Assembly: GCA_947305705.1 (NCBI GenBank)
Contig: CAMZEB010000005.1
Location: 1-46,597 of the forward strand
Reading direction: 5' to 3'
Source: an uncultured Candidatus Saccharibacteria bacterium
Lineage (GTDB): Bacteria > Patescibacteriota > Saccharimonadia > Saccharimonadales > Saccharimonadaceae
DNA: 46,597 nucleotides
Numbering within the stretch: position 1 is the first letter of the stretch; the number at the start of each line of letters is the position of its first letter. Shown piece by piece: positions 28,687 through 35,115 of the stretch. A program made the position numbers and the translations under genes. The notes below the pieces were generated by a model, which was not told where the DNA came from, did not search any database, and saw only the letters and a program-made list of their open reading frames with translations.

Positions 28687-29955
28687 ATGGCAGTAATAGC
28701 TAAACTCAAAAAGAAATTCTATTTTGTAGCAGCAGGCTACTTTAAATTTTTCGCTAACATTTCTCTTAAGAAATGGCATCCGCGCATTGTTATTATTACT
28801 GGCTCGGCTGGCAAGACTACGATGCTGAACCTCGTCGAGAGTCAGCTCGGCGACAAGGCGCATTATTCGCATAATGCCAACTCTGCGTTCGGTATCGCTT
28901 TTGATATTCTCGGTCAAAAAGGTGTCACGGGGAGCCGACTCCATTGGGTTGGCCTTATCCTGAAAACTCCGTTTCTTGGTCTGTTTTATAAGCGTCGCGA
29001 AAAATTCTATATTGTCGAGTGTGACGGCGAGCGCCCGCACGAGGCGGAATTTGTCGCAAAATGGCTAAAGCCAGAAGTCTCCTGTTGGGTGAGCCTCGGC
29101 CGTTCTCACGCAGTTTTCTATGAAAAAGAAGTTACCAGTGGCCGCTTTATAAATATCGACGAGGCGATTGCTCACGAGTTTGCGACAATTCCAGAAAACA
29201 CGAAAAAGCTCGTCCTGATTGACGGTGACAATGAGACGATGCGCGAAAAATGCGCAAATCTCAAGGCGAAGGTCGTTGCTGTCGAGCGCAAGCAGCTCAA
29301 AAGTTACGAAGTTTATCCAGAAAAGGCGATTTTTGAGATCGGTCGTCATAAATTTGAATTTCACGAGCCGATGCCGCGCGACGTGACTACGCAGATTTTG
29401 ATGCTAGACAAATTGATGGATTATCTTGGCCTGAAGATTACTACTGACCTCGAGAATTTCAAGATGCCGCCAGCTCGTAGTAATTTTCTCCGTGGCAAGA
29501 ATGGAATTAAGATCATTGACTCGAGCTATAACGCACATATTATCAGTATGACGACGGTTCTAGATATGGTGCGCGAGCTTCACGCGACGCATAAGTGGCT
29601 CGTTATTGGAGACATTATTGATCAGGGCAATCTTGAGGGCGAGGAACATAAGAAACTCGCGCAATTGCTGCTCGATACAAAAGTCGAGAAGATTGTGATG
29701 ATTGGTCGCCGCACGAAAAAATACACCGCGCCGCTCCTAGAGGACAAATGTGATTACGAGTCTTTCGACAAGCCGCAGCAGGCGCTCAAATATCTCGAAG
29801 AGAACCTCACTGGCAAAGAGACGGTTATATTCAAAGGTAGTCAATATCTCGAATGGATTGTCGAGAAATTACTCGAAAATCCAGATGATGTCGTAAAATT
29901 AGCGCGTCAGGACGCTGCACACAAAAAGCGCCGCGCAAGTTGGGGATTAAACTAA
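28687..29955 (+). CDS. Mur ligase family protein (MurF-like)
   Basis: 422 residues. The ATP site is GSAGKTT at residues 39-45. NANSAFGIAFDILG follows, with the later blocks PPARSNFLRGKNGIKIIDSSYNAH (compare GR...DDAYNAN of MurF), KWLVIGDIIDQG and TVIFKGSQYLEWIVEKLL (compare LVKGSRxxxME). This points to the D-Ala-D-Ala-adding MurF type. It is shorter at the N-terminus than E. coli MurF (452), with a basic hydrophobic start rather than a full UDP-binding domain, so the substrate could be lipid-linked. First gene of the wall operon; TAATG overlap with the hydrolase. Confidence 0.85.
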   Translation: MAVIAKLKKKFYFVAAGYFKFFANISLKKWHPRIVIITGSAGKTTMLNLVESQLGDKAHYSHNANSAFGIAFDILGQKGVTGSRLHWVGLILKTPFLGLFYKRREKFYIVECDGERPHEAEFVAKWLKPEVSCWVSLGRSHAVFYEKEVTSGRFINIDEAIAHEFATIPENTKKLVLIDGDNETMREKCANLKAKVVAVERKQLKSYEVYPEKAIFEIGRHKFEFHEPMPRDVTTQILMLDKLMDYLGLKITTDLENFKMPPARSNFLRGKNGIKIIDSSYNAHIISMTTVLDMVRELHATHKWLVIGDIIDQGNLEGEEHKKLAQLLLDTKVEKIVMIGRRTKKYTAPLLEDKCDYESFDKPQQALKYLEENLTGKETVIFKGSQYLEWIVEKLLENPDDVVKLARQDAAHKKRRASWGLN

Positions 29956-30644
29956 TGAAAAAACTCTATATCATTCACGGTTGGACTTATCGACCAGAAC
30001 CGTGGCACGAAGTCATTGCTGAGCTTAAAAAACTCGGCGTCGAGGCAGAGCTGCTAAGAGTTCCTGGGCTTGGCACGAAATCCGACAAAGTCTTTACAAT
30101 TGAAGATTACGTTAAATGGGCGCGCGAAAAGCTGCCAAAGGGGAGCTACGCGTTGGGGCACAGCAACGGCGGCCGTATTTTGTTGAATCTACTCGAAAAA
30201 GAACCAGATTATTTGAGTGGCGTGATTCTACTTGATAGTGCTGGTGTTTGGGAAAAAGAGAACCGTCGCCTCGTACTAAAGGCACTTTCGAAGGCGTTTG
30301 CTCCTCTCAAGAAATCCAAGTTAATTCGCAAAGCGGTTCATCGTCTGATCGGTGCAAACGACTACGAAAATGCGCCAGAAAATATGAAGAAGACGCTCGA
30401 TAATATGATTAATTCCGATAAGACTCTCGATATTTCAAAAGTCACCACAAAGGCTTATATTGTCTGGGGCGAAGACGACCAAACCACGCCGCTCCGCCAA
30501 GGAAAGAAAATGCACGAGCAGCTGCCGAATTCCAAGCTAACCACAAAGCCAGGCTGGCGCCACTCGCACTACCTTGTTTCCTCTAGCGAACTCGCGGCCG
30601 AGATTGCAAAACAGTACAAAGAATTAGTGGGGGCGGATAAATGA
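29955..30644 (+). CDS. alpha/beta hydrolase
   Basis: 229 residues from ATG 29955, which overlaps the previous stop by one base. It opens MKKLYIIHGWTYRPEPWHEV. The nucleophile elbow is GHSNGGR, with a DSAG after the next strand, the acid region WGEDDQTTP and the catalytic histidine in GWRHSHYL. The substrate is unknown; its place between a Mur ligase and FemAB genes suggests cell-envelope esters or lipids. ATGA overlap with the next gene. Confidence 0.88.
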   Translation: MKKLYIIHGWTYRPEPWHEVIAELKKLGVEAELLRVPGLGTKSDKVFTIEDYVKWAREKLPKGSYALGHSNGGRILLNLLEKEPDYLSGVILLDSAGVWEKENRRLVLKALSKAFAPLKKSKLIRKAVHRLIGANDYENAPENMKKTLDNMINSDKTLDISKVTTKAYIVWGEDDQTTPLRQGKKMHEQLPNSKLTTKPGWRHSHYLVSSSELAAEIAKQYKELVGADK

Positions 30645-31657
30645 TGCGTCTTCAAGAAATATCGCCAGAAACGCTCGATTCCTATGTTCAGAAATCTCAT
30701 CCGGAGGCGAACTTTTTGCAGACCTCGACCTGGGGTAAAGTATACGAAAAAGACGGCAAAAAAGTGTTTTATTTTGGCCTCTATGACGACAAAAAACTCA
30801 TTGGTTCTAGCGTAGTTATCCTCAAGCCAGCAAAGCGTGGTCGTTATCTAGAAATTCCAGGCGGGCCGCTGCTCGATTGGGATGGCGATATCAAGACGCT
30901 TCGTTTCTTTTTGAAAGAAATTGCGAAAATTGCCGCACGAGAAAAATGTGTGTTTGTTCGTATGCGACCTAATATTCCAGATACTGAGCAGCACCGAAAG
31001 CTTGCCGAACGTCTCAATCTCGTCAAATCCCCAATGCATCTTCATGCTGAGCATACGGTGATGCTGGATATTACGAAATCCGAAGATGAATTGCTGACCG
31101 AGATGCGTCGCCAGACTCGCTACGAAGTGCGCCGCGCCGAAAAACTCGGCATAAAAGTGACTTACGATGACTCTGAAAAAGCCTTCAATGATTTTTACGA
31201 TTTGCAGCTGCAGACTGCGGAGCGCCAAGGTTTTATTCCGTCAACGCGCCACCTAATTCTTGCTCAGCACGAAGTGTTTGGTGAAAAGGCCCGCATCTAT
31301 ACGGCTACGCTTGATGGCAAAGTCCTCGCAAAAGGTGAGATTTTGCTTCAAGCTCCAGAGGCGATTTATCACGAGGCAGCATCGACACTTGACGGCCGCA
31401 AGCTTCCTGGCGCCTACGCGCTACAGTGGCAGGTGATAAAAGATGCGAAAGCTCTCGGCCTCAAGCGCTACAATCTATTTGGCATTGCACCACCAAATTC
31501 GCCACACCATCGCTATGCTGGCGTTACAACTTTCAAAACCGGCTTCGGCGGTGAGCAAGTTGCTTATCTGTCGGCGCACGACTTAGTGATAAAGAAATTC
31601 CGTTACCGATTCGTTCATCTATTAGAAACCATACGCAAGAAAAAACGCCACCTATAG
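30641..31657 (+). CDS. FemAB/FemX-like aminoacyl-tRNA-dependent peptidyltransferase, copy 1
   Basis: 338 residues. GNAT-type double domain: ANFLQTSTWGKVYEKDGKKVFYFGL at the N-terminus, YLEIPGGPLLDW, VRMRPNIPDTE, RRQTRYEVRRAEKLGIKV and the C-terminal HEAASTLDGRKLPGAYALQWQVIKDA and LKRYNLFGI. Fem proteins add amino acids from tRNA to the peptidoglycan stem to make the cross-bridge. It lacks the coiled-coil arm of staphylococcal FemA, as in the smaller FemX type. The following gene is a paralogue. Confidence 0.88.
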   Translation: MMRLQEISPETLDSYVQKSHPEANFLQTSTWGKVYEKDGKKVFYFGLYDDKKLIGSSVVILKPAKRGRYLEIPGGPLLDWDGDIKTLRFFLKEIAKIAAREKCVFVRMRPNIPDTEQHRKLAERLNLVKSPMHLHAEHTVMLDITKSEDELLTEMRRQTRYEVRRAEKLGIKVTYDDSEKAFNDFYDLQLQTAERQGFIPSTRHLILAQHEVFGEKARIYTATLDGKVLAKGEILLQAPEAIYHEAASTLDGRKLPGAYALQWQVIKDAKALGLKRYNLFGIAPPNSPHHRYAGVTTFKTGFGGEQVAYLSAHDLVIKKFRYRFVHLLETIRKKKRHL

Positions 31658-31664
31658 GAGAAAT

Positions 31665-32684
31665 ATGAGAATAATTGACGCAGATAATCAGAAAAAATGG
31701 GACGATTTTGTCACGTCGCATCCAGATGCGAATTTCTTACATTCTTGGGCTTGGGGTGATTTTCACGAAGCGCGCGGCAAAAAAGTCGTCCGCCGTATCG
31801 CTCTTGATGACAATGACGCTATTATTGCAGCCTATGTTGGCCAAGTGGAGACTGCGAAACGTGGAACTTATATGGCGATTGCGGGCGGTCCAATTATGGA
31901 TTGGTCCAAAAAATCGCTTCGTGAAGCAGTATTTCAAGATATTCGCTCCCAGGCAGAGGCGGCGCACTGCGTTTTTGTTCGCATCCGCCCACAGATAGAA
32001 GAAACGCCAAAAAACCGCGAATTATTTAAAAAATTAGGATTAAAACCAGCTCCGATTTATCTATCGGTTGAGTATGCTGGAATTTTGGACCTCAATAAGA
32101 CTGAGGAAGAAATACTCGCCGGTGCCGCGCAAGGGCTACGCCGCAAAATTCGCAAGGCAGAGAAAAACGATATTACAGTCGAAACTAGCACTAATCCAAA
32201 GGATATTCACGAATTCTATCAGATTGAGCTCGAGACGGCGAAACGTCACGGCTTCGTGGAATTTTCTGAAAGCTTCCTTACGAAGCAGTTCGAAGCCTTC
32301 GCAAAATATGATGAAGTTAAGCTATATACGGCAAAACTCGGCAAAGATATACTCGCGCAGAATTTTATGATTTTCTATGGCAACGAGGCGTCTTATCATT
32401 ATGGCGTTTCCACCGAACTAGGCACGAAGTATTCCGGCGCTCCGCTACTGCATATGCAGGCGATGCGTGATGCGCGTGAGCGTGGTATCAAGCGCTACAA
32501 TTTTTGGGGAATTACTGGTATTGACGAAACGAAACATCGTTTTTATGGCGTCAGTCAGTTCAAACGTAGTTTCGGCGTTGAAGAGTTAAAATATTTGCAC
32601 GCTCACGATATGGTGATAAATCCGCTAAAATACAAACTCGACTATATCGTAGAAAAAACTCGCGCAAAAATCCGCCACGTTTAG
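31665..32684 (+). CDS. FemAB/FemX-like peptidyltransferase, copy 2
   Basis: 339 residues, clearly paralogous to the gene before it (ANFLHSWAWGDFHEARGKKVV, YMAIAGGPIMDW, FVRIRPQIEETP, LRRKIRKAEKNDI, LLHMQAMRDARERGIKRYNFWGI). Shine-Dalgarno AGGAG, 7 bases between genes. With two transferases the bridge may be built from two amino acids added in order, or each may act on a different stem; this is inference. A hairpin near its stop may end the operon. Confidence 0.88.
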   Translation: MRIIDADNQKKWDDFVTSHPDANFLHSWAWGDFHEARGKKVVRRIALDDNDAIIAAYVGQVETAKRGTYMAIAGGPIMDWSKKSLREAVFQDIRSQAEAAHCVFVRIRPQIEETPKNRELFKKLGLKPAPIYLSVEYAGILDLNKTEEEILAGAAQGLRRKIRKAEKNDITVETSTNPKDIHEFYQIELETAKRHGFVEFSESFLTKQFEAFAKYDEVKLYTAKLGKDILAQNFMIFYGNEASYHYGVSTELGTKYSGAPLLHMQAMRDARERGIKRYNFWGITGIDETKHRFYGVSQFKRSFGVEELKYLHAHDMVINPLKYKLDYIVEKTRAKIRHV

Positions 32685-32752: not shown

Positions 32753-33379
32753 GTGAGTAACACAAAACGTAAATTTATCGAAAGTCATTGGCTTACATTT
32801 GCCTTGAAGGGTGCGATTTCGGTAGTAGCTAGCCTCTGCCTAATGTTTTCGCGCAGTAACGATACGCATACATTAACACATATTCTCGGTTGGACAATGT
32901 TTGGCCTCGCTTTTATTGAAATCGCGAACGTCGTCTATCGCAAAGTCCGTTCAAATAACTGGGGTTTCCCACTATTTCTTGGTATCCTTGAGCTTGCGAT
33001 TAGCATTGCCTTGCTTTATACGGTTGATCCAGAAGCAACCGATGAAAGTCTCATTGCGACACGCGTCGCAATCCTTGCCGGCTATGTCATTTTCGCTTCC
33101 GTCGTCACGATTGTTATGGGCTTTATGAGCTTCAATAATATAACTGACCGCTATATGTGGGTAATCAACGGTATGATTGGCTCGGTCTTGGCATTTCTAA
33201 TGCTCGGCGGCACTAGCTCAGCAAGCGACACTGCTGGCATCTTCTTTGGCACGAAGGTCCTCGTCTTCGGCGTCTATTTGCTCGTAAATGGTCTTACGGA
33301 CCTATTCTTCGGTATTCACGCTAGAGATATGGCAATCGAGCAGCGTGAAGCGCGCAGAAAAGCCAGAAGGAGTAAATAA
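32753..33379 (+). CDS. HdeD-like (DUF308) membrane protein
   Basis: 208 residues, GTG start with AAGGAG seven bases upstream. About six transmembrane helices in three hairpins: residues 15-34, 42-60, 72-92, 106-127, 135-152 and 165-188. Short loops and the pattern W...L.G..S...G......P, ending in a basic tail (EQREARRKARRSK), resemble the HdeD family, whose E. coli member is linked to acid stress. The function here is unknown. The stop overlaps the next start by one base. Confidence 0.65.
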   Translation: MSNTKRKFIESHWLTFALKGAISVVASLCLMFSRSNDTHTLTHILGWTMFGLAFIEIANVVYRKVRSNNWGFPLFLGILELAISIALLYTVDPEATDESLIATRVAILAGYVIFASVVTIVMGFMSFNNITDRYMWVINGMIGSVLAFLMLGGTSSASDTAGIFFGTKVLVFGVYLLVNGLTDLFFGIHARDMAIEQREARRKARRSK

Positions 33380-34326
33380 TGCTTTTTGACGCAAAAAGCA
33401 GAATTGAACGCTATTTTCGCCACAATCCGCAGGTGAAAACTATCGTTATCTGCGGTTCCTATGGACGTAAGTCTGCCATTCGCTGTATTGGTGTAATCCT
33501 TGGCCAGTCGCTGACTGTTACGATGGGCATCAACCCTAGCGCCGACCCAGATGTCGTGCTTCTAGACTACGGCTCAATGGCGAATTTCCCAGAAATCAAT
33601 CCAGACATCACGGTTATTACGAGTTGCGAATCTGACGAAGAGGCCAAGCACTTCTTTGAGATGGCAAATAAATCTCGCCATGTTCTCGTCAATTATAATG
33701 ATGTGCCTCAGCAGTACGCAAAATACCTCAGAAATCCAGAGGTGACGACTTATGGCGACGAGCTTCCTGCGGATTTTTATTTCGAGAATCACGAATCTGG
33801 CCTCGATGGCCAGTCTGGCGATATCGTTAATCCAGAGCGCGAACATATCCCTGTTCAGGTTAAACTAATCGGCGAGCATAATATGCGCCCAGTGATTATG
33901 GCTTGTGCGGTTGCGAAACTTTTCCAGATTGACCGCGAGAAGATTCTTGCCGGCGTTAGCGCGATTCGCCCGGTCCACGGTCGTATGTCGCCAGCGAAGG
34001 GGATTCATAATTCCGTAATTCTCGACGACTCTGCTTCTACCTCTGCTACTTCTCTAAAATATGGTATGCAGGCACTCTATAACATTCAGGCGCCAGATCG
34101 CATTCTTGTCACCGATGACGTCCGCAAGCTTGCCAAGATTGATTATGATTTAGTGTCCGAAGTGTTAATTCTCGGTTCAGGGGCGACTGAGAGCGCAAAT
34201 AATAAGATTAAATTTTTCTCGGACGAGATTGATCTAGTTAATCATCTCGGCAAGAGACTGGACGAAAATTGCCTAGTTTTGCTCGAGATTCCACTTCCTG
34301 AAATTATTGAGTCTTATATATGGTAA
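33379..34326 (+). CDS. Mur-ligase-like protein with altered P-loop
   Basis: 315 residues. The central and C-terminal Mur ligase blocks are recognisable: KLIGEHNMRPVIMACAVAKLF (the GxHNxxNxxAA block), a HGRMSPAKG block like GRxE/GRME, and ILDDSASTSATSLKYGMQAL in the position of DDYAHxPxS. The ATP-binding loop, normally GTNGKTTT, reads GSYGRKSA (residues 26-33), so the P-loop lysine is replaced or shifted by one. It lacks the N-terminal UDP-binding domain. It could be a ligase with unusual ATP binding or a non-catalytic relative. Its last codon and stop, TGG-TAA, are part of the parA promoter. Confidence 0.75.
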   Translation: MLFDAKSRIERYFRHNPQVKTIVICGSYGRKSAIRCIGVILGQSLTVTMGINPSADPDVVLLDYGSMANFPEINPDITVITSCESDEEAKHFFEMANKSRHVLVNYNDVPQQYAKYLRNPEVTTYGDELPADFYFENHESGLDGQSGDIVNPEREHIPVQVKLIGEHNMRPVIMACAVAKLFQIDREKILAGVSAIRPVHGRMSPAKGIHNSVILDDSASTSATSLKYGMQALYNIQAPDRILVTDDVRKLAKIDYDLVSEVLILGSGATESANNKIKFFSDEIDLVNHLGKRLDENCLVLLEIPLPEIIESYIW

Positions 34327-34335: not shown

Positions 34336-35115
34336 ATGGCAAAGGTGATTACGATTACCAATCAAAAAGGAGGTGTTGGCAAGACAACGACATCTGTTAA
34401 TCTTGCTTATTATCTCGCAAAAGCCGGCAACAAGACTTTGCTTATTGATTTTGACCCTCAGGGCAATGCTAGCTCTGGCCTCGGCGTAAAAGAGAAGAAT
34501 CTTTCGAAGACTATTAGCGCCGTTATGCTGGGCGAAGTTGAGCTAAAAGATATTATTGTTCAACCAGACAAGAAGAAGTGCAAGAAACTCTATCTTGTCC
34601 CGACGAATGTTGAGCTCGCTGATGCTGAGATTAATATGAACGCAAAGGACATTCCAGATAAGTTCTTTGTGTTAAAACAGGCCATCCTTTCTGTCGCAAA
34701 AGATTATGATTACATCATCATCGATAGCCAGCCTAGCCTTTCGCTCTTAACTGTCAACGCAATGGCAGCCGCGAACTATCTACTACTCCCAGTCCAGACT
34801 GAGTATTATGCACTAGAAGGCGTCGCTGAGCTCCTTCGCACTGTGAATGATATCAAGAAGGGTATAAACCCGAAGTTGAAGCTACTCGGCGTCCTAGCGA
34901 CGATGTATGATAAGCGCACTAGCTTGAGCTCACAGGTGCTTGCCGAAGTTAAGCGTTATTTCAAAGATAAAGTATTTGATACGACTATTCCGCGCAATGT
35001 GCGCCTTGCAGAAGCTCCTAGCCACGGCGTGGCAATTGGTCAATATGACCGCTTCTCAAAGGGCGCCAAGGCTTACAAATCGCTAGCTGACGAAGTAATG
35101 GAGCGCGTCAAATGA
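34336..35115 (+). CDS. parA: chromosome partitioning ATPase ParA/Soj
   Basis: 259 residues. Deviant Walker A KGGVGKTT at 11-18 with signature Lys11 and Lys16, the A' motif LLIDFDPQGNASSGLG and Walker B YIIIDSQPS. Length and N-terminus match Soj-type chromosomal ParA without a DNA-binding extension. It moves the origin region together with ParB. The stop TGA overlaps the parB ATG (ATGA). Confidence 0.96.
   Translation: MAKVITITNQKGGVGKTTTSVNLAYYLAKAGNKTLLIDFDPQGNASSGLGVKEKNLSKTISAVMLGEVELKDIIVQPDKKKCKKLYLVPTNVELADAEINMNAKDIPDKFFVLKQAILSVAKDYDYIIIDSQPSLSLLTVNAMAAANYLLLPVQTEYYALEGVAELLRTVNDIKKGINPKLKLLGVLATMYDKRTSLSSQVLAEVKRYFKDKVFDTTIPRNVRLAEAPSHGVAIGQYDRFSKGAKAYKSLADEVMERVK

Follow-up and report, generated by a model that had tools for sequence, protein, structure and literature searches.

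The gene at positions 33379–34326 of the window, by which we mean the whole 46,597-nucleotide stretch of Saccharibacteria DNA analysed, encodes a Mur ligase homologue that has lost most of its catalytic features, occurs across its genus, and evolves under strong purifying selection. We consider it probable that this protein, hereafter the target, is a dead, shortened descendant of a short MurF, whose reaction was taken over by a second MurF-like ligase, and that, having been retained, it most likely works by binding. MurF is the D-Ala-D-Ala-adding ligase (UDP-MurNAc-tripeptide--D-Ala-D-Ala ligase). The ancestor would have been the short MurF that is normal in this Saccharibacteria family, and its reaction would have passed to a different MurF-like enzyme, MurF6 (28687–29955). 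Active-site residues for ATP and metal, and those of the C-domain, would have disappeared from the old MurF, whose gene now adjoins one for a DUF308 membrane protein. Kept as a folded two-domain protein, the old MurF could then act with the DUF308 protein at the membrane as a scaffold or regulator, keeping the enzymes of cell-wall precursor synthesis in place or adjusting their work.

Homology, predicted fold, and active site of the target

The gene and its parts are as follows.

33379–34326, + strand: pseudo-MurF gene (the target), 315-residue Mur-ligase-fold protein, ATG start, from the open reading frame and profile matches
33454–33474, + strand: degenerate P-loop GSYGRKS, residues 26–32, with Arg at the Walker-lysine position
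33565–33567, + strand: Asp63, replacing the active-site Glu of Mur ligases (Asp in 29/29 copies; Glu in 29/29 of the standard-MurF group)
33619–33663, + strand: residues 81–95, site of the deleted metal-binding His segment
33871–33882, + strand: kept GEHN block, residues 165–168
33979–33987, + strand: kept GRM block, residues 201–203 (Arg in 27/29)
34024–34032, + strand: kept DDS block, residues 216–218, followed by Ala or Ser where MurF has Tyr
34279–34323, + strand: C-terminal motif LLEIPLPEIIESYIW, family-specific, in place of the MurF KGS loop

The Pfam Mur_ligase_M profile matched the target with 27.6 bits (curated cut-off 24), over profile positions 107–200 only. NCBIfam murF matched it with 55.5 bits (E = 4.6e-15), far below the cut-off of 288.6; short MurFs from the lineage that are intact score under this value as well (G181, 165.7; L178, 220). 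Sequence matches in the PDB at E ≤ 1e-3 were one MurE and two MurFs. At the sequence level, the homology of the target to Mur ligases is above chance, and by descent and fold it falls within the Mur ligase superfamily (on the Pfam match and on a model Z of about 18, obtained with other Mur ligases in the alignment). An earlier note, made from the DNA letters, had described a Mur-ligase-like reading frame here with an odd ATP loop, GSYGRKSA (residues 26–33), and with HN, GRM, and DD-S blocks kept. Both descriptions were confirmed, the blocks being GEHN, HGRM (residues 200–203), and DDS.

An AlphaFold2 model built from five near orthologues only was too poor to use (pLDDT 49.7). With rows of other Mur ligases in the alignment, the model reached a pLDDT of 67.9 and a pTM of 0.55, and its best PDB match was the MurF 1gg4 (Foldseek E = 4.5e-11, TM 0.53). 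Comparison with MurF, MurT, and pMurE gave Z values of about 18 over about 290 residues. The rmsd among the top 15 structural matches was large (5.6–9.6), as with domains set at different angles. The target is predicted to be a two-domain, folded protein of the Mur type.

Six proteins of the genome match Mur_ligase_M, namely MurE, MurD, MurT, MurC, MurF6, and the target. MurE (418 aa) and MurT (428 aa) carry the loop GTNGKTT, and MurF6 (422 aa) carries GSAGKTT. MurE and MurD exceed their NCBIfam cut-offs; MurT and MurC are best matches to their own models, below the cut-offs. The UDP-binding N-terminal domain is missing from the target, as the earlier note had said, but that note over-read the absence as something special: MurE, MurT, and MurF6 of the same genome lack the domain too, so its absence is not diagnostic of function. 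The sole other MurF candidate seen in the genome is the following.

28687–29955, + strand: MurF6, a MurF-like ligase with eight of nine catalytic features kept

The names MurF6 and, for the standard short MurF of about 430 residues with the loop GSVGKTS, MurF427 were coined in this analysis. MurF6 occurs in 28 of the 80 family genomes searched (G223 and G232 left out). Eight of the nine features are kept in 12/12 MurF6 rows, the one loss being the second Asp of DD, which is Ser. MurF6 is most likely the working MurF of the genus, a role that we infer, since it scores only 110 bits against NCBIfam murF (cut-off 288.6), has Ser for the second Asp, and has a GEHN block that fails to align.

Catalytic features were scored on an alignment of 29 target copies, 29 rows of the MurF427 group, 11 of other MurFs, 12 of MurF6, and 7 of MurE. 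The Walker-lysine position was read in 37 distinct target copies and held Arg in 35, Asn in one, His in one, and Lys in none; G320 and the second copy in G019, which were matched only, are left out of the 37, and G006, with a split reading frame, stands outside the target counts. In all 29 scored copies, the active-site Glu is Asp, the metal His is gone (deleted in 28, Gln in one), the Tyr of DDxYN is Ala or Ser, the His of the EH block is deleted, and KGS is missing. DD and the Asn of GEHN are kept in 29/29, and the Arg of GRM in 27/29. Each copy has lost six to eight of the nine features (seven in 27 copies), compared with one in each of the 12 MurF6 rows. The distance from the Walker position to the acidic strand is 33 residues in the target versus mostly 72 in standard MurF, about 39 shorter, and the active-site loops of the C-terminal domain are shortened. 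The GKT loop expected of a MurT is absent from the target copies. The family also has invariant or near-invariant features of its own, such as the C-terminal LLEIPLPEIIESYxW.

In passages of a study of Mpl, compared with MurC, motifs of this kind are assigned to the ATP phosphates, the metal, the adenine, and the ribose (PMC3060825), and excerpts on MurE describe the same Walker loop plus a carbamylated lysine (PMC3829189). According to part of the MurT literature, MurT is active although its metal histidine is absent (PMC6085368), so that loss of this residue alone need not be fatal, and the case rests on the summed losses. On these, a catalytically dead target is a well-supported reading. 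The MurE lysine that is carbamylated in other species aligns, by eye, with a Glu in the saccharibacterial MurFs L050–L070 (QEEL versus AAKA). A permanent acidic residue may stand in for the carbamate in those MurFs.

The earlier note had offered a ligase with a new substrate as one of two readings, and the active-site losses in 29/29 copies leave that proposal unsupported. Ligase or ATPase activity through a rearranged P-loop, with Lys31 taking the part of the Walker lysine, would fit the invariant Gly26 and a loop conserved across most of the genus. We regard it as highly unlikely, however, with Glu, the metal His, the EH His, and KGS all changed or deleted in every scored copy and K31 absent from 5/37.

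The kept residues could instead serve a ligand sensor, which would bind a wall precursor or nucleotide through HN, GRM, DD, and the basic GRKS loop and report supply to DUF308, FemX, or ParA. Consistent with this are the retention of DD, of the GEHN Asn, and, in nearly all copies, of the GRM Arg, together with a loop that stays basic (Arg at position 30 in 35/37). On the other side, K31 is missing in five of the 37, two copies read GTRDRTP and GTRGHAS, and the roughly 39 residues gone after the P-loop probably took many ligand contacts with them. We consider a sensor unlikely.

Distribution and selection

Of the 45 genus genomes, 40 gave a target match, including 23/23 with a completeness of 90% or more and a contamination of 5% or less. 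The five genomes without a match are 69–88% complete, and two of them (G017 and G020) also lack a parA match; being incomplete in this way, they make the absence mean little. The genome of the window itself is 885 kb and 99.5% complete. When 294 genomes were drawn evenly from the order, nine members of the genus scored at least 484 bits and every other genome at most 154 bits, the weaker matches including MurF427; 138 of the 294, not listed by name, gave no match. A search of viral contigs returned no relative. One genome (G019) holds two divergent pseudo-MurF copies (G019:C12 and G019:C27), through duplication or a mixed bin.

Four close pairs of target genes (dS 0.27–0.44), three of them from one trio, gave dN/dS values of 0.017–0.028. 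The corresponding values for intact MurF were 0.012 and 0.020 in two pairs. Remoter target pairs had high or saturated dS, with dN/dS at most 0.085 where defined. The target is under strong purifying selection, near that on intact MurF, and therefore is not a pseudogene. A decaying pseudogene or a sequencing artefact would account for the broken active site and for the reading frame of G006, which is split at undetermined bases. This explanation is ruled out by the dN/dS values and by the presence of the gene in all 23 near-complete genomes; no internal stops occur among the matches listed, the gene is found in 40/45 genomes, and we give the idea next to no credence.

Loop conservation in relatives had been set as a test by the earlier note. 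The orthologues are without GKT (0/37 with the Walker lysine), which rules out an isolated mutation, and the paralogous standard MurFs have GKT. The same note had suggested a "regulatory pseudoenzyme". The second word holds, given the lost Walker lysine, the loss of six to eight of nine features, and the purifying selection; the first names a role that the protein may have. By sequence, the protein is a pseudoenzyme in the sense of being conserved under selection with its catalytic residues lost. With the active site lost and the gene still strongly selected for in each well-sequenced genome, a non-enzymatic job is probable.

Gene neighbourhood and possible partners

The gene order is MurF6–hydrolase–FemX–FemX–DUF308–target–parA–parB–frr, in line with the placement in the earlier note of the gene after a cell-wall operon and before parA.

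29940–30644, + strand: alpha/beta hydrolase in the MurF6 run
30641–31657, + strand: FemX-like aminoacyltransferase 1
31665–32684, + strand: FemX-like aminoacyltransferase 2
32753–33379, + strand: DUF308 membrane protein, whose stop overlaps the pseudo-MurF start
34336–35115, + strand: ParA-type ATPase, the adjoining gene downstream of the target

The DUF308 gene lies immediately 5' of the target in 30/30 distinct loci, with a stop/start overlap in 25 (longest-ORF starts). Because of this constant position, we read a role as a membrane binding partner or scaffold as probable; both the role and the partner are proposals from gene order, and the DUF308 protein may itself belong to a membrane complex for wall precursors.

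A partner in chromosome partition, working with ParA/ParB and coupling wall growth to segregation, would be suggested by parA being the next gene in 28/30 loci (G006, with its split reading frame, among the 28). It would also fit the survival of the DUF308–pseudo-MurF–parA block in two genomes (G155 and G161) in which the MurF6–hydrolase–FemX–FemX run is absent and two other MurF-like ligases are found instead. The two exceptional loci point the other way: two CoA-dehydratase-activase-like genes separate the target from parA in G013, and the same pair follows the target in G002, where parA is not in view, but in both DUF308 is still attached. We consider a role in partition improbable and prefer the scaffold with DUF308. 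The names CoA-dehydratase-activase, ligA, leuS, and those of other neighbours at the leuS locus come from our reading of the sequences.

The MurF6 run of three g19 genomes stops at DUF308, no target follows, and parA lies on a different contig. A strict pairing of the target with MurF6 is ruled out by these three genomes (MurF6 only) and by G155 and G161 (target only). The DUF308 protein closing the MurF6–FemX run in the three g19 genomes shows 25–27% identity. Within the same run, these genomes have an extra gene of 362–391 residues (7344–8429 in L161, and the same place in L162 and L163); the L161 product, as we read its sequence, resembles a PLP-dependent aminotransferase.

Origin of the target and known systems

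In a quick tree, the target copies formed one clade (support 100) that joined the short MurFs, MurF427 included, with support 94, and MurF6 formed a separate clade (support 100). All three trees of this study were quick, and the target/MurF6 and g30 trees carried warnings of long rows or joined long branches. MurF427 of relatives sits near leuS, and often ligA. No MurF was found within 1.5 kb of leuS in 6/6 genomes of the genus, a test that is not exhaustive because one or two genes may intervene between MurF and leuS in relatives. We infer that the target gene moved from the leuS site.

Decay of the standard MurF was compared across family genomes of other genera: 53 had a match and 52 were aligned, with G248 left out for an assembly gap; G246, cut by a contig end, was dropped as well. 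At least two of the nine features were lost in 5/5 outside-genus genomes with MurF6 versus 2/46 without it; the Fisher p of 9e-6 was obtained without regard to kinship (two of the five belong to one genus) and on genomes selected by the presence of a match. The link between MurF6 and decay was proposed from one of the five (G215) before the remaining four were inspected. The 46 genomes without MurF6 comprise 42 that lost none of the features and four that lost at least one (G132, G236, G137, and G299), two of these at least two (G132 and G236). G132 and G137 have a second MurF with intact motifs, and G299 has a second murF match that is the stronger of the two. The MurF of G236 is partly degraded, and a search for a second one there found none. 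MurF decay and a second MurF co-occur. That the first MurF is dead wherever a second exists does not hold as a rule, since G146 has an intact MurF427 alongside another MurF-like protein.

That all degraded MurFs go back to one origin was neither established nor rejected (AU p = 0.248, on a tree without five long or doubtful rows). The degraded MurF of G173 falls inside its own genus, g30 (support 100, in the g30 tree that carried a warning). The full-length MurFs with damaged motifs in the five outside-genus MurF6 genomes (L218–L221 and L182, from G090, G173, G276, G291, and G215) form a natural gradation between a live and a dead enzyme. A further MurF-like group (L030, L032, L034, L106, and L159; 414–483 aa) has GSYGKT and a C-domain QN replacing KGS. 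It occurs alongside other MurFs (G146 and G031) and is perhaps a different ligase.

More broadly, and tentatively, the standard saccharibacterial MurF may have a second, non-catalytic function that is hard to lose, such that it often stays as a dead scaffold after replacement. The target would then be the most reduced form, locked to DUF308 and usually to parA. If so, a dead MurF scaffold may couple the making of wall precursors to the membrane or to segregation.

As textbook enzymes and drug targets, Mur ligases have been viewed chiefly for their catalysis. A bacterial Mur ligase that lost its active site, yet is about as constrained as its working counterpart and sits in very small genomes with little to spare, argues for a structural Mur role. 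The open-access PubMed Central listings and abstract openings searched contained nothing on point about a bacterial Mur pseudoenzyme or about the Mur ligases of Saccharibacteria.

Four known systems invite comparison. PAP11/MurE-like, a Mur-ligase relative, is found among the subunits of a different machine, the plastid RNA polymerase (PMC9456514, PMC4080259). It matches the target weakly in sequence (E = 0.0075) and by Foldseek (8r6s_Q), but it is MurE-type, longer, from plants, and part of a transcription complex, with no sign that the repurposing shares an origin. MurT, which with GatD makes up the lipid II amidotransferase, resembles the target in having a Mur fold without the UDP-binding N-domain and in lacking the metal histidine (PMC6085368); the model matches it with a Z of 18.2 (9sqj). 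The genome's own MurT, in contrast, retains GTNGKTT, and MurT/GatD is described in the same study as an active enzyme (PMC6085368). The MurFs degraded in place (G090, G173, G215, G276, G291, G132, and G137) are standard MurFs that, like the target, have damaged motifs and occur with another MurF. They differ in being full length (426–463 aa) and more mildly damaged, and in lying near leuS in the six loci examined (all but G137). Intact, degraded, and shrunken forms of MurF in one family offer a natural series for tracing which surfaces are kept. The nearest relative by both sequence and tree is the short saccharibacterial MurF, which has the same succession of central and C-terminal domains, whereas the target is about 110 residues shorter and has lost the P-loop, metal, acidic, and C-domain catalytic residues.
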